In this document: positions 20,817 to 44,500 of the stretch, one piece after another
How positions within the stretch are numbered: position 1 is the stretch's first letter
How the letters are laid out: each line of letters begins with the position of its first letter
Origin: Notolepis coatsorum
Taxonomy: Eukaryota; Chordata; Actinopteri; Aulopiformes; Paralepididae
NCBI GenBank assembly: GCA_963971535.1
Contig: CAXASK010002185.1
Coordinates: 169,247 to 233,246, forward strand
Length of the DNA: 64,000 nucleotides
Direction of reading: 5' to 3'
The notes under the pieces: model-generated
Seen by the model: the letters and a program-made list of their open reading frames with translations, nothing else
What the model was told of the DNA's origin: nothing
The model's database searches: none
Made by a program: the position numbers and the translations under genes

Positions 20817-21826
20817 ACTGGCCTCCCAAAAAAAACACAGAACGACTCCAACTCATTCAAAACTCGGCAGCTAGGCTACTAACTAGAACCAAGAGGAGAG
20901 ACCACATCAGTCCAGTATTAGCTAACCTACACTGGCTTCCGTAACATTTAGAATTGATTTCAAGGTCCTCCTCCTTATATATAAAGCACTAAATGGAACA
21001 GGACCAAGCTACATTGCAAATTCTCTAGTCAACTATGTGCCTCCTAGAACATTGCAATCATCTACTACTGGTCTATTGAAGGTTCCAAGCCACAGTCTAA
21101 GGGAAATCGGGGATGCAGCCTTTGCAAACTATGCACCAAAGTTATGGAACACACTACCTATGGACATTAGGGAAGCTAGATCTCTTAATAAATAAGCTAA
21201 AAACGTACCTCTTCACCATAGCCTTCTAATACACTCCGCTGTTGATTGTACTGTAGCACTATCTTACTTTGTATAATTTTACTATCTATTCTATTCTACT
21301 ATTTTATTGCACTTTATTATTTTACTGTCTATTGCTTTTTATTACAGGCTCAAAACTGTCAGGTATTAAACTGTGTGGGTATCAAACAAGAGACTGTCAG
21401 GCTTTAAAACTGTGTAGGACCTGGCGTAGCGGAGATTGCGTTCGTCACCAACCCCGAAGCTGTGAGCTGGATTCGCCTGTTCGAATCCAGCTCACAGCTC
21501 CGGGGTTGTCACCAGCTTGGCTGGCCGTTCACACTAGGGTGGGAGAAGCTGGCGGGGTGGGTCCGGGTCGTTGTAAACAGCGACTCCTACAGTTCGGTCG
21601 GGGCGCCTGCTAAGCGCGGATAGGACCTGAGTGGGATAGTGTGATCCTTCCACACTCTACGCCCTCTCAGGGAGGATCCGCGCTGCCAGGTGAAAAGAAG
21701 CGGTTGATTGGCTGGACGTGTGTCGGAGGAAGCACGTGATAGCCTCCACTCTCCCAGATGATCTGACTGTGGGGGGTAAGTGCGCAGCGACCAGGAAGGG
21801 ATTGGGAATTGGCATACGACTAACAT

Positions 21827-24800
21827 ACGGCTGCCTTTCTGTTCGCTCCGTCGAGACTGTGCTTACTTTTGTTAATATTTATAGTTTTAAGAGTTTTGTC
21901 TGTACCAACAGTAGGTGCATTTAATGTGTATGACCGTCAGTCACTTATAGACATCGGATTACGGGAAACTTACCGATTGGATTACTCACTGGACCAGCTT
22001 TCCGAACCGCAACAATGGCCTGAGGAGATTCTCAGGAAAATGGGACCAGAGCCTGATCCCAGGAACAAAGGAACCAGACGGCGTGGGAAGAGAGCTGGGA
22101 TCCGTAACAGGCTGAGATCCAGACGCCACCGAACACCATTACCCAGTATATTGCTAGCCAATGTACAATCAATTGACAATAAACTGGACGATATCCGAGC
22201 AAGGATTCAATACCAAAGAGACGTTAGAGATTGTAACGTTCTCTGCTTCACCGAGACGTGGCTGTCGCCGGACGTCCCAGATCACGCAATTCAACCAGCC
22301 GAACACTTCTTCATCCACCGCAAGGATCGTACAGCAGAGTCCGGCAAACAACGTGGAGGAGGTATCGCCTTCATGTTTAACAACAATTGGAGCGATCCAA
22401 CTAACGTGAAGGAATTATCCAACCACTGCTGCCCAGACCTGGAATATATAACCATCAAGTGTCGTCCTTTCTTCCTCCCGAGGGAGTTAACGGCGATCGT
22501 CCTGATCGGAGTGTATATTCCACCGCAAGCGAGTAACAACGTCGCGCTCTCCAGACTCCACGACGAGGTAAATAGAATACAAGCGGCGAACGTTAACGCC
22601 GCCATTTTAGTGCTGGGTGATTTCAATAGCGCCAATCTGAGAAAGGTATTACCTGACTTCTATCAGCATGTGACTTGCAACACCAGAGGCGGTAACATCC
22701 TAGATCACTGTTACACGCAATTTAAAGGTGGCTACAAGGCTCATTCTGATAGTGGCTTTGGTAAATCAGATCACGCGTCCATTTTTCTTTCACCAAAGTA
22801 CAAACAGAGAATCAAAAGTACTCCTGTAGTCTCGCGAGAGGTGCAGAAATGGGATTTGACGTCAGAGGAGACGCTCCAGGCTGCGTTTGACTGCACAGAC
22901 TGGAACGTGTTCCGCGACACAGATAACATTAATGTCTACACGGAGGCAGTGCTGGACTATGTTTGTACTTTGGTGGAAGAAACAATCCCCACTACCAAAA
23001 TGAGAGTTTACCCAAATCAAAAACCCTGGGTAGACAAATCCGTCCGTGAAGCTCTGAGAGAGCGCACCAAAGCATACAACGACGGCCTAGTGGCAGGCAA
23101 CATGAATGACCACAAGGTGGTGCGACACAACGTAAGGAGGACAGTGACAGAGGCCAAACGGCGCTACAGGGATAAAATTGAACTCCAGTTTGAACAAGCT
23201 GACTCTAGAGCTATGTGGCAGGGGCTCAAAACGATGACAGACTACAAAGGCGCCTCCCTCAAACTGAACAGTGACATCTCCTTAGCAAATGACCTCAATA
23301 CCTTCTATGCGAGGTTTGATGCTGGTAATAACAACACCAGCCCACAAGCCACGGCAATGGGGGGGGGGGGGTCGGCTGCTGATGGAGACGCAGTGTTCAG
23401 GGTAACAGAGCATGAGGTTTTTACATTACACATGGGCAAAACAGAGTCCATTCTCTTCGGTTCAAATAACAAACTCAGCAAGACCGACGGCTTCTCAGTT
23501 ACAGTGGGTGACAATATTGTCACAAGGAAAGATGAAATTACCTACCTGGGTTCCATCCTAGAGGCTAATCTCTCCTGTGACAAAATGGCATCCAATGTAA
23601 TAAAAAAAGTCAACCAACGAACTCGATTCTTGTACCGGATCTCCTCTCTGGTAAACAAGAACACCCTGAAGACTCTGGCAGGAGCACTCATTCAGGGGTA
23701 CTACGACTATGCTTGCACCTCATGGTACCAAAGCACCTCAAAGGCGCTAAAAACAAAATTACAAACATCTCAAAACAAACTGGTCAGACTACTGCTTGAC
23801 CTTACTCCTAGAACCCACCTCACCCCTGCCCACTTTGACAACCTAGGATGGCTTAGAGTAGACGACAGAGTACAACAACTTGCAATGGGCCTGGTCTACA
23901 AGATACACTACACGACCAAGGTACCCATGTACATGTCAAAATACTTCCCAAAGGTCAGTGAATACCACGATCACAACACCAGAGGGAGCTCCACAAATCA
24001 TGTTAAACCCAGATTCGGCTCAAATAAGGGACTAAACACGTTTCGCAATTATGCCACATCAATGTGGAACGCCCTACCCAAAGCTGTAAAGGAATGTGGA
24101 TCACTACCCACTTTCAAAACCTCTCTCAAGGGACACCTACGGGAGACTGCAATTCAACACTGGCCCCTGTAAATATCCTAACCCAACCCCCTCCAATGTA
24201 CAGTCATTTACCTAGTATGGTTTTGTCAATAGTTCAATGTACAATTGTGTTTGTTTGTACAGTGTCTCCCCCCCCCCCCCCTCAATGTACAGTGTTACTT
24301 GTTTATACAGTGTGCCCCCCGCCCCCCCCCCCCCCCCCAACCACCTCCAATGTAAATTACCCAGTATGGTTGTCAATATCCCAATGTACCCAACCCCCCC
24401 CACCCAACCTCCTCCAATGTACAGTTTCTACGTCAAATGTATATACTCCCTTTTCTTGACTCCTTCTGTATCACAAAAAGTACTGTATTTGCAAATCTGG
24501 TATGTCATAAATGTATAGATGTAGCAGTACTGACTATCTGTATGTCATGTATGTCATATATGTCTATATGAATTGAAAATGGGGGACCCTGATGGAAACA
24601 AGACAAACGTCTTTCTCAGGTCTGCATCCCCTTAACAATTGTATGTATTGAGCCGTACTGTATTGTACCCATTCTGCAATCTGTTAAATAAAGTTTTCAT
24701 TCATTCATTCATTCATTCATTCAGGTGAGGCGGACCTTTAAAAAAGTGAATATCAGGAAGGCAGCAGGTCCGGACGGCATCCCCGGCCGCGTCCTAAAAG

Positions 24801-26598
24801 TCTGTGCCGACCAACTGGCCCCAGTATTCACTGACATATTTAACCTGTCCTTAGAACAGGCTGTCATCCCCACCTGCCTGAAGAAGTCCACTATTATCCC
24901 TGTACCCAAAAAATCCAAGCCTGCTTGCCTCAACGACTACCGCCCTGTAGCTCTCACCTCCATAGCCATGAAGTGCTTTGAGAAGCTAGTAAAGGGCTAC
25001 ATCTGCTCCTCCCTCCCCATCAACATGGACCCCCTGCAATTTGCATACCGCCCCAACAGGTCCACGGAGGACGCCATAGCCCATGTGCTGCACACAGCAG
25101 CATCACACCTGGACAAGAGGCAGGGGAACTATGTGAGAATGCTATTCATCGACTACAGCTCGGCATTCAATACCATAGTCCCCTCCATACTCATAGCCAA
25201 GCTCAGGGACCTGGGCTTGAACTATGACCTCTGCCAGTGGGTCTTGGACTTCCTGACTGGCAGACCCCAGGTGGTGAGAGCAGGCAACTGCACCTCCTCA
25301 TCCATCACCCTCAACATAGGGGCCCCCCAGGGCTGTGTTCTGAGTCCCCTCCTCTACTCCCTGTACACACACGACTGTGTGGCTCAGCGGAGTAGCAATA
25401 CAATCATCAAATTTGCTGACGACACAGTGGTGGTGGGCCTGATCTCTGCCAACGACGAGAGGGCCTACCTGGAAGAGGTCAAGGTCCTGGCGGGATGGTG
25501 CCAGGAAAACAGCCTCTCCCTGAACGTCAGCAAAACAAAGGAGATGATTGTGGACTTCAGGAGGTCGGGGGTCAGGGACTACAGCCCCCTCAGCATCGAC
25601 GGGGCACCGGTTGAGAGAGTCAACAGCTTTAAGTACCTCGGAGCCTACATATCCGAGGACTTGACATGGACCACACACATTGACAGTGTTGTGAAGAAGG
25701 CACGACAACGCCTCTACTTCCTCAGGCGCCTAAGGAAGTTCCAAGTCAGTCAGAAGATCCTTAAGAACTTCTACTCATGTACAATAGAGAGCATCTTGAC
25801 TGGCAACATCACCTCCTGGTTTGGGAATAGCACTGCACAAGACCGAAGCAGACTACAAAGAGTGACACGTTCAGCCGAACGCACAATTGGAGGGGGGCTC
25901 CCCACCCTCCAGAACATTTACAACAAGCGTTGCAAGGGCAAGGCTAAGAGAATCATTAAAGACTCCAGTCACCCGAACAACTGCCTCTTTGAACTGCTGC
26001 GGTCAGGCAAGCGATACCGGAGTCTCAAGGCGAGCACAGAAAGACTCAGAAGAAGCTTCTATCCCCAGGCCATCAGGCTGCTAAACGAACAATGAACACT
26101 ACACAACAACAACCACCAAAACGCACATAGCACACACATCCACACGCACACACTCACTTTAAACAAACACACTGTAGCACCCACTCCACACACTTTATAG
26201 CACACACCCACTTTAAACAAACACACTGTAGCACCCACTCCCCACACTTTATATTTATATTTATTGATGAAGGATTGCACTACAACTCGTACACCTTACT
26301 GTAAATTGTACCTAAATTGTACCTCATCCCATTTCTGCTTTGCACTATATAGTACTGTACATTAGTACACTGCATAGTATTGTATATTATATGGTAACTC
26401 AGAACATTGTACATATGTCTATACCGAACACTGTGACCTCATTTTCTTCTTCTAAATTACATGCTATACTATGTTATTTGATGTTATTTGATACTATCTT
26501 GTCTTAGCACAGTCTCCGGAGCGAAACAGTAAGAAGCATTTTGTATGAAAGTATTCTGTACTTCTGTATGACAACTATTAAAGAAACTTGAAACTTGA
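21827..26598 (+). mobile_element. LINE-B (CR1/Rex1-like non-LTR element), near complete, split by LINE-A
   Basis: The endonuclease half (about 22140-22800) has LLANVQSIDNKLDDI, LCFTETWL, LGDFNSA and KSDHASIF. The reverse-transcriptase half (24723-26095) has [39 protein letters not shown] and [10 protein letters not shown], ending with stop after RLLNEQ. The 3' UTR ends in ACTTGAAACTTGAAAC, a short TTGAAAC repeat. AACAT flanks both sides (21822-21826 and 26599-26603). An open frame from 21869 runs straight into the inserted LINE-A and stops at 24172, so it is a chimera and not a LINE-B protein. The clade name is from motif style only. Confidence 0.85.
23425..24722 (+). mobile_element. LINE-A, 5' truncated, innermost level of nest
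   Basis: From LHMGKTESILFGSNNKL through the C-terminal HWPL stop (24172), then the 3' UTR and AATAAAGTTTT(CATT)n tail. Almost base-for-base identical to the copy at about 38.98-40.25 kb, so it is young. The host LINE-B sequence flanks it with AGGT on both sides (23415-23418 and 24723-24726), either a short TSD or microhomology. About six extra bases (TTTTAC) lie at the 5' junction. Confidence 0.9.
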
Positions 26599-30138: not shown

Positions 30139-34121
<3,983 letters not shown>

Positions 34122-36535: not shown

Positions 36536-39500
36536 TTGACCGTGAGACGCACATACACAACATGCATACAACATATCGACGCCCGATAGCCGGCTAGCTA
36601 GCAGAGCTAACAACAAAAACAACCAGGAACGAGTCCTTTGTTGTCCCAGCACGGCGCGGGACCCGACACCCCCCTCCCCCCTTCTTTGTTGTTCCAACAC
36701 GGCGCGGGACCCGACGCCCCCCTCCCCCCTTCCCACCCACAACAACACAGAGGAACAGATTACAAACGGACAATACTTCGAACCTGCCAACATAAATGAA
36801 ATAACCAACGCCAATGGACTGAACATTTTTCACATTAACATTAACAGCTTAAAAAACAAATTGGATGAAATCAAGCAAATATTCATAAATGGTAAGGCAA
36901 ACATACTGTGCTTCTCAGAAACTAAGCTCGACGATTCTGTAAAAGATCCAGAGATAGAGATTGAGAACTACTCAATAATCAGGAATGATAGGAACAAACA
37001 TGGAGGTGGTGTCTGTATGTACATACACAAGGACACCAAATTCATCAACAGAAATGACCTGAATCATAAATCAATTGAAACTGTATGGGTGGAAATCCTA
37101 TTCGAAAGGGCGAAATCCCTACTGGTTGGCACAGTCTACAGGCCGCCAGATCATAGTGGCTTTTATGATACAATGGATGGGTGTTTAGCTGGAGTTGAGG
37201 ATGTAGACAAAATTCTTATTGGAGACTGGAACACGGATATGCAACGAAAAGATGCACCCGTCTTCAAGGCCTTCAGTAGGTTTTGTGATCTGCATGGCCT
37301 CAGCCAGCTAATCACCCAACCCACACGTGTATGTGAATCAACTCAGACTACCATTGACCTCATTCTGACCTCCGACAAGTCCAAGATCTCAAATAAAGGG
37401 GTTATAGCATGTGGGTTAAGTGATCATTATATGATATTCTGTACCCGAAAAAAACTAAAACAAAAGGCTGGCTGCCACAAAACAGTCACATCTAGAGACC
37501 TCAAAACCTACTCTAGCGAGGCCTTCAACCTTGAACTGGAGAGTCTGGACTGGTCAGATGAACTCAATGGTACACTGGTTGACGAAACATGGCTTGGTTT
37601 CAAAACCAAATTCTCAGCAATACTAAACGACATGGCCCCCCTAAGAACCACCAGGGTAAAAAATCGCGCTGAGCCGTGGATGCACTCCGAAATACTGGCC
37701 GCTATGAAAACCAGAGACAAAAAATGCTCTGAGTTTCGTAAAAGTCAGTCAAAGCTTACTAAAAGCACGAGCAGTGAACTCCAAGCCCACGTGACTGAAC
37801 TCAAACTAGAAAGAAACAGACTAAGAAACGACGTAAACTCCATGATCAAAACTGCAAAAAAGAATTTCATCAATGACAAAACTGAGGAAAACAAAAACAA
37901 ACCACGTGAACTTTGGAAATTACTCAATAATCAACTAGGATGCAGTAAAAAACTTAAAACCAGATTCTCAAACATAAACATAAAAACTGACAACACGCTC
38001 ATCACAGACAAGCTGGATGTAGCCAATTACTTAAACATTTTCTTCACAAACATAGCCACAACACTGGTAAACAAACTACCCTCCCACTCAGGGCTTTATG
38101 GGGTAGAACACATAGTAGCTTTCTACAAAAACCTAGGGGTCCGCAAGGACGACTTCAAGCTGGAAACGGTAACAACAGATGAGGTACTCAATAAACTGAG
38201 CGCCCTCCAACCTAACAAGGCCACTGGCCATGACAACATCCCCTCCAAATTCCTCAGAGACTCAGCAGCCGCCATCACACCAATCATCACACACATAATA
38301 AACCTCTCCATAAAACAGGGACACGTCCCCAAGGACTTCAAAATTGCGAGGGTGACCCCTCTGCACAAAAAGGGCAGCAAATTAGACCCAGGCAACTACC
38401 GCCCTGTTTCTATTCTCACCTCCATCTCGAAAGTCATGGAAAAAATAGTCTACGAACAGGTCGAAAAGTACCTAGCGGAAAAAAATCTAATCTACGAATT
38501 CCAATCTGGCTTCAGAACATCCCACTCCACTGACACATGCCTTCTCTATTTGAATGACCACATCAAACAAGAGGTGGACGCAGGCAAATACTGCGGCATG
38601 GTCATGCTGGACCTACAAAAGGCCTTTGACACGGTCAATCACTCCATTCTGATTGACAAGCTAAAAGCAATTGGTTTTGATAGTCTATCAGTGAGCTGGA
38701 TGCAATCCTACCTTGAGGGGAGGGAACAGATGGTGGAGGTAAACGGTACCCTATCCCCCCCCCTCACAGTGAGCTGTGGTGTTCCACAAGGAAGCATACT
38801 AGGACCGCTACTGTTCCTAATTTATGCAAATGACATGTCGTCAGCTTGTGACTGCAACTTGTTCCTGTTTGCGGACGACTCAGCCCTGCTGGTCTCTGAC
38901 AAGAACAAGTTACAGGTTGAAAAAACCCTCAGCTCGGAACTAGGCAGAATCTGCATATGGCTCGCTGATAACAAACTATCATTACACATGGGCAAAACAG
39001 AGTCCATTCTCTTCGGTTCAAATAACAAACTCAGCAAGACCGACGGCTTCTCAGTTACAGTGGGTGACAATATTGTCACAAGGAAAGATGAAATTACCTA
39101 CCTGGGGTCCATCCTAGAGGCTAATCTCTCCTGTGACAAAATGGCATCCAATGTAATAAAAAAAGTCAACCAACGAACTCGATTCTTGTACCGGATCTCC
39201 TCTCTGGTAAACAAGAACACCCTGAAGACTCTGGCAGGAGCACTCATTCAGGGGTACTACGACTATGCTTGCACCTCATGGTACCAAAGCACCTCAAAGG
39301 CGCTAAAAACAAAATTACAAACATCTCAAAACAAACTGGTCAGACTACTGCTTGACCTTACTCCTAGAACCCACCTCACCCCTGCCCACTTCGACAACCT
39401 AGGATGGCTTAGAGTAGACGACAGAGTACAACAACTTGCAATGGGCCTGGTCTACAAGATACACTACACGACCAAGGTACCCATGTACATGTCAAAATAC

Positions 39501-40256
39501 TTCCCAAAGGTCAGTGAATACCACGATCACAACACCAGAGGGAGCTCCACAAATCATGTCAAACCCAGATTCGGCTCAAATAAGGGACTAAACACGTTTC
39601 GCAATTATGCCACATCAATGTGGAACGCCCTACCCAAAGCTGTAAAGGAATGTGGATCACTACCCACTTTCAAAACCTCTCTCAAGGGACACCTACGGGA
39701 GACTGCAATTCAACACTGGCCCCTGTAAATATCCTAACCCAATCATTCCAACCCCCTCCATATGGTTTTGTCAATAGTTCAATGTACAATTGTGTTTGTT
39801 TGTACAGTGTCTCCTCCCCCCCCCCTCAATGTACAGTGTTACTTGTTTATACAGTGTGCCCCCCGGCCCCCCCCCCCCCCCAACCACCTCCAATGTAAAT
39901 TACCCAGTATGGTTGTCAATATCCCAATGTACCCAACCCCCCCCACCCAACCTCCAATGTACAGTTTCTACGTCAAATGTATATACTCCCTTTTCTTGAC
40001 TCCTTCTGTATCACAAACAGTACTGTATTTGCAAATCTGGTATGTCATAAATGTATAGATGTAGCAGTACTGACTATCTGTATGTCATGTATGTCATATA
40101 TGTCTATATGAATTGAAAATGGGGGACCCTGATGGAAACAAGACAAACGTCTTTCTCAGGTCTGCATCCCCTTAACAATTGTATGTATTGAGCCGTACTG
40201 TATTGTACCCATTCTGCAATCTGTTAAATAAAGTTTTCATTCATTCATTCATTCAT
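36536..40256 (+). mobile_element. LINE-A, near full length, endonuclease-RT frame uninterrupted
   Basis: Open from 36546 to the stop at 39728, about 1,060 codons. Endonuclease motifs: GLNIFHININSLKNKLDEI, LCFSETKLD, GDWNTDM, LSDHYMIF. RT motifs: NYRPVSILTSISKVMEK, MLDLQKAFDTVNHS, GVPQGSILGPLLF, LFADDSALLV. The C-terminus HWPL is shared by all family copies. No ATG lies upstream of the endonuclease in this frame, so the true start is probably lost by 5' truncation. A 48-bp GC-rich tandem pair lies at about 36637-36730. The 3' UTR ends AATAAAGTTTT(CATT)n. Motif style fits the L2/CR1 group. It is the reference copy for the other LINE-A pieces here. Confidence 0.9.
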
Positions 40257-41344: not shown

Positions 41345-41524
41345 ATGGCGGCTGTGGCAGAAGCGACACATGTGGGCAGCTCGGCTGAGGAGTTATTAGG
41401 TAAATAAACCTGTATACATTTTCTAATTTGTTCAATTGAGCGAGAGATGAGGGCTGGCGCTGAGTCATTTGAGATGTCGTCGGAGAGAGGAGGAAGGCAT
41501 GGAGGAGGGTTGGACCCGGTCGCT

Positions 41525-41563
<39 letters not shown>

Positions 41564-44500
41564 TAGTCGAAGCGTGGCGGGGGAGGGTCTGAGAATTGGG
41601 AGGAAGTGTGTCGGCGGATGGACGAGAGGGTGATGACGCGGAGTTTGGAAGTTGATGTCAGAAAGTTATGCGGAGATGTGGAGGCGGTACCGGCGTTTAG
41701 GGTGGGATCTCGCTGTCGTGCTGTGTTTTCGGGGGACGGCAAGAGTTACTCGGGGGTTGTTTCCTGGATCGAAGGAAAAAAGTGCCGGGTCGAGTTTGAT
41801 GGCTATAACGGTGACGAGGAGATGGATGTGGCAGCCTTGTTGGTCTGTGATGAACTGCTTTCGGGAGCTAGGGAGGGTAGTGAGAGCGAGGGAGGAGTCG
41901 ATGAATGAATGAATGAATGAATGAATGAATGAATGAATGAAAACTTTATTTAACAGATTGCAGAATGGGTACAATACAGTACGGCTCAATACATACAATT
42001 GTTAAGGGGATGCAGACCTGAGAAAGACGTTTGTCTTGTTTCCATCAGGGTCCCCCATTTTCAATTCATATAGACATATATGACATACATGACATACAGA
42101 TAGTCAGTACTGCTACATCTATACATTTATGACATACCAGATTTGCAAATACAGTACTGTTTGTGATACAGAAGGAGTCAAGAAAAGGGAGTATATACAT
42201 TTGACGTAGAAACTGTACATTGGAGGAGGTTGGGTGGGGGGGGGTTGGGTACATTGGGATATTGACAACCATACTGGGTAATTTACATTGGAGGTGGTTG
42301 GGGGGGGGGGGGGGCCGGGGGGCACACTGTATAAACAAGTAACACTGTACATTGAGGGGGGGGGGGAGGAGACACTGTACAAACAAACACAAATGTACAT
42401 TGAACTATTGACAAAACCATACTAGGTAAATGACTGTACATTGGAGGGGGTTGGGTTAGGATATTTACAGGGGCCAGTGTTGAATTGCAGTCTCCCGTAG
42501 GTGTCCCTTGAGAGAGGTTTTGAAAGTGGGTAGTGATCCACATTCCTTTACAGCTTTGGGTAGGGCGTTCCACATTGATGTGGCATAATTGCGAAACGTG
42601 TTTAGTCCCTTATTTGAGCCGAATCTGGGTTTAACATGATTTGTGGAGCTCCCTCTGGTGTTGTGATCGTGGTATTCACTGACCTTTGGGAAGTATTTTG
42701 ACATGTACATGGGTACCTTGTACATAGGGACGGGGACTGTCGTGACAGGGGAAGGGAGTCAGATGGTGACAGTATGGAGGGGGGTGAGAGCGGGGGAGAA
42801 GGGTGGAGAAGAGGAGCAGAGACAGTGGGAAGGGGATAAAGAGGAAGAAGGGTAGGGGAGATAGCTCGAGTGGGTCAGAAGGTGAGGGTAGCGGAAATGT
42901 TAGTGCAGAAGTGAGGAAAATTGTGGTGGTAGTTCGGTTTGGGGATGCAGAGCAGAAAATGATGAGAGAGTTGAATCCGATGGTGCTGTCTGATGATCTA
43001 AAAAAGCAGTTGGGGAGTATAGGGTATGCGAGGGTCCTTCCTGATGGGAACCTGTTGGTTTCATGTAAGAGTGAGGGGCAGGCTGAGAACGCTAAAGGGT
43101 TGAAGATGGTAGTGAATTGTTCAGTGGTGGAGGTGGGTAGGGTGGGGGAGCGGAGAGGGGCAGGAAGTAAGGGGGTGATAGCCGGGGTGCCGAAGGGCTT
43201 GAGTGAGGAAGAATTAAAGGAAAACCTTTAGGGAGGTATGCTAGTTAGAGTAAGGAGGTTGCAAATAACTAGAGATGGGAAGAAGGAGCCTAGTGAGGCA
43301 GTATTACTGGAGTTTGAGGGGGAGGGGCTGCCTGGAAGAGTGAATTTGGGGTATGTGAGCTACTCGGTGAGGGCTTATATGCCGAGGGCGATGCGGTGCT
43401 TTAACTGCCAGCGGTTTGGCCATATGGCCCGGGGATGTAGGGAAAGTAGGAGGTGTGCGAGGTGTGGGGGGGACCATGAGTATGGGGAATGCAGGGAGGT
43501 GAAGCCTAGGTGTTGTAGCTGTGGTGGGGAGCACAATGTGGCTTCTGGGGATTGTGAGGTCATGAGGAGGGAGACGAATGTCCAGAAGGTGAGAGTGGAA
43601 GGTCGGCTCTCATATGCTCAGGCAGCGAGGGCAGAGGGGGGACAAGGTGGAGAGGCGAGGGAGGTAGTGGTCGGTGAGGTGGATAGGCAGATGGCTGGTA
43701 GGATATTAGTGGAGAAGAAGGCGCTTGTGTTTTTTATAGCTGATGTGATTAATAGTGCTTTCGGGGTTACATCTAGGACTGCAAAGGTTCAGGTGGTAGT
43801 GAAGGCAGCAGTGAGTCATTTGGGAGTAGAGGGGCTGGGGTGGGAGGAGGTGCATAGGGTGCTTTATTCGGGCGGGGTATCACAGAAGGTTTGAGGGAGA
43901 TGGGGGTTAGGGAGTTGGGGATGTCGGAAATACTGAGTGGGGGAGGGGGAGATAAGGCGAGGGTGGTGATGGGGTTTTGAGGAATGTGGGGGTGTATGAT
44001 AGGGTCTGAGGGAAAGGGTCAGAGTTGGAAGTTAGATAGAAAGTTGAAATATACGTGAGTCAGAGAGTGGGATATGTAGTATAATGTAGATGTAGGTTTA
44101 TAGGGATGGTGAACAGTGTGGTTGTAGGAAGGTGTTTGTAGGTTAGGTAGTTAGTTAGACTAGTGGTTAGAGAGGGGAGACTGGAAGGCTGGCCCGATCG
44201 CCGGGTCGGTAGGTGGCGGTAAATGGCCCAATTTTGGTGCCCGTCCGCCGTAAAACACCAAATAGAAGAAGAAGAAGAATTTGTTCAATTTAACGTCGTT
44301 AGGTTTGCGGCGTTTTGAATGGTGTTATTATTGATATAAATATACTAGTTCGGTCACAATAGCTGGCCAGGTTATCATCAGCGTTGCTAAACTCAACAAC
44401 ACAAACTACGGGGCACTAGGCAGCATAACGTTGTAATCTTCGTCAAATGTATATACTCTCTTTTTTTACACTCTTCTTGTATCACAAACAGTACTGTATT

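Follow-up and report, generated by a model that had tools for sequence, protein, structure and literature searches.

SMN-type Tudor domains bind Sm proteins and other arginine-methylated proteins, and TDRD proteins read Piwi proteins through related, extended Tudors.

HAL1 (half-L1) is a non-autonomous LINE derivative that encodes ORF1p alone, as described in the accessible text of PMC5753468, and HAL1 insertions are present in mammalian genomes (accessible text of PMC4859970). The accessible portion of PMC4120745 describes PHD domains ahead of RRM-RRM-CCHC3 ORF1s, notes that PHD fingers recognise modified histones, and considers exchange of ORF1 between lineages possible. The esterase ORF1 of ZfL2-1-type LINEs carries an extra domain, for which a membrane-targeting role was suggested in the accessible portions of PMC3905857 and PMC4120745.

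In the open-licence literature, the scope of our search, with Repbase reports lying outside it, we recognised no report of a LINE ORF1 that contains a Tudor domain. The word tudor was absent from the accessible text of PMC4120745, PMC3905857 and PMC6338049, and the words CCHC, zinc knuckle and reverse transcriptase were absent from that of PMC12147562, which deals with Tudor genes. The element described here lies in a 64-kb window, meaning the whole stretch of DNA that was analysed. It is very probably the decayed remnant of a half-LINE, a non-autonomous non-LTR retrotransposon with ORF1 only, and it carries a Tudor domain.

Structure of the window copy

The window element is surrounded by an RRP15-like gene, recognised by eye, and its parts are listed in Table 1. 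The 13-bp duplication bounds 41438-44277 and so places the Tudor frame inside the retroposed unit, which is about 2.0 kb long without the nested insert. Repeats make 13-mer matches common in the window: a copy 1.5-4 kb upstream was found for 2,227 of 55,250 window positions, compared to 23 of 299,935 in simulated sequence. Therefore, the duplication alone is modest evidence, and the argument is carried by a second copy, L029, flanked by a separate 15-bp duplication (197-211 and 2238-2252).

L029 was 94-96% identical to the window element on both flanks of a gap, and the two gave no alignment over their first few tens of bases. Because L029 is uninterrupted at the position equivalent to 41903-42723, this segment was identified as a nested insertion; it is the same kind of LINE as the ORF at 36546-39728.

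Table 1. Parts of the Tudor-bearing element and its flanking duplications in the window.
Feature	Position	Strand	Basis
5' target-site duplication copy AATTTGTTCAATT	41425..41437		exact 13-bp repeat of 44278-44290
ORF1-only non-LTR element, family A	41438..44277	+	duplication at both ends, (GAA)n tail, L029-like layout
ORF1 N-terminal part	41474..41902	+	open reading frames; start codon inferred
SMN-type Tudor domain	41696..41845	+	Pfam 4.1e-7, PDB SMN match, codon positions
Nested 5'-truncated LINE copy, antisense to the element	41903..42723	-	window copies at 96.5-99.3%, L029 comparison
ORF1 middle part, RRM-like segments	42788..43228	+	94% identical to the open L029 frame
ORF1 C-terminal part	43232..43891	+	94% identical to L029
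ORF1 stop codon, 3'UTR and (GAA)n tail	43892..44277	+	directly 3' of ORF1
3' target-site duplication copy	44278..44290		exact 13-bp repeat of 41425-41437

The window copy is damaged by two stops, one frame shift and the nested LINE fragment. The first premature stop codon lies at 41564-41566, with the frame open from 41567, and L029 contains no stop across the stretch equivalent to window 41474-41902. The frame shift relative to L029 is located near 42790, just 5' of the ORF1 middle part. This part is closed by the second premature stop (43229-43231), which is spanned by a weak PNMA_N RRM-like match. Beyond this stop, the C-terminal part holds the remainder of the second RRM-like segment, three CCHC knuckles and the C-terminal domain. 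No second copy of the Tudor element was found within the 64-kb window.

Several other features were observed in the window. An open 1060-aa ORF2 of another LINE occupies 36546-39728 on the plus strand (endonuclease, 6.4e-9; reverse transcriptase, 5.5e-35), and 3' pieces of this LINE lie in at least four other places, one of them nested in the Tudor element. At 21824-24172 on the plus strand, the endonuclease portion of one LINE seems to be fused, within an open frame of 782 aa, to the C-terminus of the 1060-aa LINE, and a reverse-transcriptase frame follows at 24692-26095. Overlapping 510-aa open frames were present on both strands at 30139-31675; the minus-strand frame looks like a multi-pass membrane protein and showed no Pfam match at E 0.1.

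Detection of the Tudor domain and the ORF1 core

The original prediction held that a frame at the start of this element aligns with SMN-type Tudor domains, and the profile search agreed. Pfam SMN_Tudor (PF06003) matched residues 44-93 of the frame at 41567-41908 with an E-value of 4.1e-7 and 30.4 bits, above the cut-off of 22.7. The controls gave no such match: five shuffles, the reversed sequence and two overlapping frames returned no Pfam family at E ≤1, the shuffles and the reversal making up six of the ten control sequences prepared. In phmmer searches of the PDB, human SMN structures matched the window frame at 7.3e-5 to 2.3e-4 and the SPF30 structure at 0.0088. Three further sampled copies, L031, L032 and L033, scored 27.0, 26.8 and 27.2 bits against the same SMN_Tudor cut-off, and L029 was marginally under it at 22.6 bits.

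The ORF1 core was more weakly matched by profiles. The zf-CCHC match in the window ORF1 was below cut-off (E 0.0016), retroviral nucleocapsid structures matched at about 5e-4, and three CX2CX3-4HX4-6C knuckles were recognised by eye. A type I LINE ORF1 is defined by one or more RRMs directly ahead of the CCHC knuckles; here the RRM-like segment gave weak PNMA_N matches only, one of 0.027 in the window, below cut-off, and one of 0.021.

A single open frame across the genome

Counted from the first plausible ATG, the ORF1 of L029 is a stop-free frame of 538 aa. It encodes, in order, an N-terminus, the Tudor domain, an acidic linker, RRM-like segments, three CCHC knuckles and a C-terminal domain.

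The genome (3.42 Gb, 4,787 contigs) was searched with a Tudor query, for which the best 150 of 302 candidates were scored, and with a C-terminal ORF1 query, for which the best 150 of 22,753 were scored. Since only the best candidates were scored, all locus counts are lower bounds. In at least 37 loci besides the window, Tudor and CCHC matches lie close together with the same open-frame length, 359-625 aa. No stop was found within the matches at 36 of these 37 single-frame loci, and a TGA lies inside the Tudor match at C29:119915393. Copies joining both parts in one open frame, the search for which had been proposed as a check, were recovered at no fewer than these 37 loci, with L029 read whole. 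The predicted placement of the Tudor ahead of a CCHC ORF1 was supported by the single open frame in the 37 other loci and in L029.

The copies were sorted into three families. Family A, which includes the window and L029, comprises at least 21 loci with both parts, whose Tudor and core are 86-100% and 92-100% identical to the window, respectively. In family B, the Tudor is 72-77% and the core about 50% identical to the window; at least 57 Tudor matches fall in this identity band, 40 of them in frames of at least 500 aa. Family C, found with a second Tudor query (L032), includes at least 85 matches at ≥77% identity, of which 78 are stop-free within the match and 59 lie in frames of at least 530 aa. 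Fourteen family C matches share an identical score of 192.5 bits. At one family C locus, C44:17778027, a core match was seen by eye 0.6 kb downstream of the Tudor.

Over 126-133 bases, at least 40 family B tails (the best 40 of 351 candidates) showed 99-100% identity. The near-identical B tails and the many long open family C frames indicate recent activity.

For 28 blindly chosen genome stretches (236 kb), the best protein match had an E-value of only 0.04, and the best DNA match, 34 bases long, one of 0.007. No relative of the element was found in the viral contig, genome contig, phage and plasmid collections, as expected for an animal element.

Aromatic cage and selection on the Tudor domain

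The methyl-arginine cage of SMN, formed by W102, Y109, Y127 and Y130, corresponds in the window to F54, Y61, F77 and Y80 in the numbering of the 41567 frame, and all four residues are aromatic. A phenylalanine at the position of SMN Y127 occurs in SPF30 too. The cage residues were FYFY in the window, FYFC in L029, IYLF in a family B copy and YYFY in two family C copies. In the one B copy, two of four cage aromatics are gone, and 20 Tudor-query matches share the score of this copy. The changes in the B copy and the cysteine of L029 mean that methyl-arginine reading cannot be general. Judged from these residues, reading of methylated arginine is plausible for family C and some family A copies, and doubtful for the family B Tudor.

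Between the window and a family C copy, the Tudor is under constraint, with a dN/dS of 0.51 over 91 codons (Fisher p 0.015) and 0.40 in the Tudor core. For the Tudor of one B copy, purifying selection was undetectable against either partner: dN/dS was 1.03 (core, 0.81) compared to the window and 0.97 (core, 1.11) compared to C. The window and L029 gave 0.67 from 9 synonymous and 20 other changes, which is uninformative.

These patterns bear on whether the Tudor is still a methyl reader at all. It could instead be a structural module, serving for example in self-association of ORF1p or in RNA binding, and we regard this as a serious possibility that falls short of probable. The cage loss and the dN/dS near 1 of the B copy fit such a role, as does the abundance of near-identical family B tails despite that loss. 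A purely structural module agrees less well with the window and the two C copies, which have kept aromatic residues at all four positions, and with the window-C constraint.

ORF1 and tail in the listed loci of families A and B

In both the window copy and L029, about 385 bases including the tail follow ORF1. In the window copy, the 386 bases from ORF1 to the tail end are too few to hold an ORF2, and three open pieces of this region gave no Pfam match.

The 3'UTR search was scored for the best 40 of 514 candidates. In family A, the 3'UTR adjoins ORF1 in all 16 loci for which Tudor, core and tail are all listed, the window included, and its match always begins 4 positions past the ORF1 match. 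Both Tudor and core were matched at 21 family A loci, and for five of these the 3'UTR was not among the best 40 of 514.

In the sampled family B copy (L030), the end of ORF1 runs into the (GAA)n tail, with the last 74 columns 75.7% identical to L029. Among the best 40 of 351 family B tails, 30 have a listed Tudor within 9 kb upstream. The distance from Tudor to tail is 1,235-1,268 bp in 27 of these 30, with single loci at 1,876, 2,592 and 5,198 bp. At the loci with 1,876 and 2,592 bp, the core is still 80-81 bp from the tail; the same spacing was found in four of the ten listed tails without a listed Tudor. The locus with 5,198 bp (G000:C1:22514427-22520103, plus strand) has a Tudor and an open 537-aa frame, and its extra length may be an ORF2 or an insertion.

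By eye, L030 190-1051, 3' of the family B tail, contains a stretch of roughly 450 bases duplicated in tandem, with (CAA)n. In a sampled family C copy (L034), unrelated sequence follows ORF1. This sequence lies at L034 40-421, directly after ORF1, and we take it, from its terminal pattern, to resemble a hAT-type element.

The element had been called a LINE; as a complete LINE it does not stand, families A and B being ORF1-only in the loci that were checked. The earlier I/Nimb-like label is a tentative one, that clade being defined by reverse-transcriptase phylogeny and an RNase H in ORF2. As in a half-LINE, an ORF1 without ORF2 was found among the loci listed, and the window copy and L029 each lie as a unit between their own flanking duplications.

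Relatives without the Tudor domain

The whole L029 ORF1, with its Tudor at residues 72-120, was used as a query. At 12 loci with 79-82% identity, the alignment starts only at query 130-136, in frames of 436-456 aa. Just 27-46 frame residues lie outside the alignment, too few for a Tudor and the part upstream of it, and these loci are therefore without the domain. None of the 12 appeared in the Tudor-query list (best 150 of 302, down to 76 bits), and their C-terminal ORF1 part was 91-94% identical to the window. The earlier concern that other copies lack the domain applies to these 12 close relatives but not to the Tudor families.

The distance from ORF1 to the 3'UTR was large in some of these relatives. 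It was 3,666 bp in the C2 copy (C2:644875), which has a 97% identical 3'UTR and no Tudor, and 4,803 bp in the Tudor-less C27 copy, with a 93% identical 3'UTR. A partial locus on C21, beyond the 12, showed 4,598 bp between ORF1 and a matching 3'UTR. By size, the one property used for the assignment, these gaps of 3.7-4.8 kb match a putative ORF2. For the other ten Tudor-less loci, the 3'UTR was not among the best 40 of 514.

At three loci, homology begins inside the Tudor (query 107, 115 and 119) with the 3'UTR adjacent, and 5' truncation and loss are not distinguishable there. Of the 27 loci whose core reaches 95% identity or more, 8 have no Tudor among the matches listed, and several of them begin inside ORF1.

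These data also bear on the reading that the Tudor families are autonomous LINEs with a Tudor ORF1, and that the ORF1-only copies are amplified internal deletions. The Tudor, open frame and distant tail at C1:22514427 favour it. Furthermore, the ORF1-only counts come from the best 40 of 514 and of 351 tails and from families A and B alone, and ORF2-bearing copies with more divergent tails could escape these lists. However, the listed loci were ORF1-only in 16 of 16 cases in family A and 27 of 30 in family B, though the cores of the two families are merely about 50% identical, and the family A relatives with an ORF2-sized gap are those without a Tudor. We therefore consider autonomous Tudor LINEs rather unlikely.

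Mosaic structure of ORF1

Identity to the window differed between parts of the same frame. At four loci, the Tudor was 86-88% identical and the core 48-49%; at 20 loci, these values were 72-77% and 49-50%. The Tudor-less relatives show the opposite pattern, with a core at 91-94% and no Tudor. These identities suggest an exchange of Tudor and core between families. Alternatively, selection might have conserved the Tudor more than the core. Within the Tudor piece, to which this figure is confined, the window and the B copy differ at only 14% of synonymous sites, which favours exchange over selection. On the simplest reading, one lineage supplied family A with its 5' end and Tudor and a second lineage with its core and 3' end, a join of the kind that template switching produces.

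Origin of the Tudor frame

When the genome was scanned with Pfam, 64 SMN_Tudor matches were obtained, all above cut-off, compared to none in 14 control genomes. Sixty of the 64, scoring up to 42.6 bits, overlap Tudor loci of the element (59 in the first Tudor-query list and 1 in the L032-query list).

The remaining four matches (G000:C24:102818363, C8:52669657, C6:202071263 and C6:201179324) scored 84.1, 53.8, 45.0 and 44.3 bits and lie outside both Tudor lists. They are perhaps host genes, namely exons of SMN or SMNDC1.

A chance resemblance, or a host SMN/SMNDC1 pseudogene beside a LINE remnant, might be suggested by an identity to human SMN of just 35% over 51 residues (18/51), but with a Pfam score above cut-off, blank controls, a frame lying within a duplicated target, L029 and the 37 single-frame loci, this origin was rejected as practically negligible.

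Proposed mode of propagation

As a half-LINE, the element would propagate with the help of a relative. Its RNA is predicted to encode one protein with an SMN-type Tudor, an acidic linker, RRM-like segments and three CCHC knuckles. This ORF1 protein may coat its own RNA, and the ORF2 protein of a Tudor-less relative with a common 3' end may copy that RNA. The Tudor could dock the particle on host proteins and so let it reach a favourable compartment; the targets would most likely be methylated-arginine proteins, e.g., Sm or Piwi. Docking is proposed because the known partners of SMN-type Tudors are arginine-methylated proteins, and we hold this step to be tentative, conceivable without being probable. 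A broader scenario is more speculative and, in our estimation, unlikely: half-LINE parasites would have captured a host-like methyl-arginine reader, would pass it between lineages, and would park their RNA on germ-granule Sm- or Piwi-type proteins to take over a partner's ORF2 protein or to avoid silencing.

The findings touch on how LINE particles find their germ-line site and why half-LINEs keep an intact ORF1. Near-identical families that differ in Tudor presence and cage state make both questions directly testable. Furthermore, they suggest that LINE lineages can exchange the ORF1 N-terminus as a module.

Comparison with known systems

Families A and B resemble HAL1 in being ORF1-only LINE derivatives. 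HAL1 is derived from L1, whereas the elements here combine a CCHC-type ORF1 with a Tudor that is absent from their closest Tudor-less relatives.

The SMN and SPF30 Tudors were the best Pfam and PDB sequence matches of the window Tudor. Compared to SMN, the window Tudor is two residues shorter between strands, has an identity of 35%, and resides in a mobile element.

An additional domain in ORF1p with a proposed targeting role is shared with ZfL2-1-type ORF1s. In that case the domain is an enzyme, and according to the accessible text of PMC3905857, no RRM occurs in any such Repbase ORF1.

The PHD-bearing ORF1s, as described in the accessible portion of PMC4120745, differ in that the domain is PHD and not Tudor and that those elements are classed by their ORF2. 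They are alike in placing a reader-type domain ahead of an ORF1 with RRM or RRM-like segments and CCHC knuckles, with evidence of exchange between lineages.
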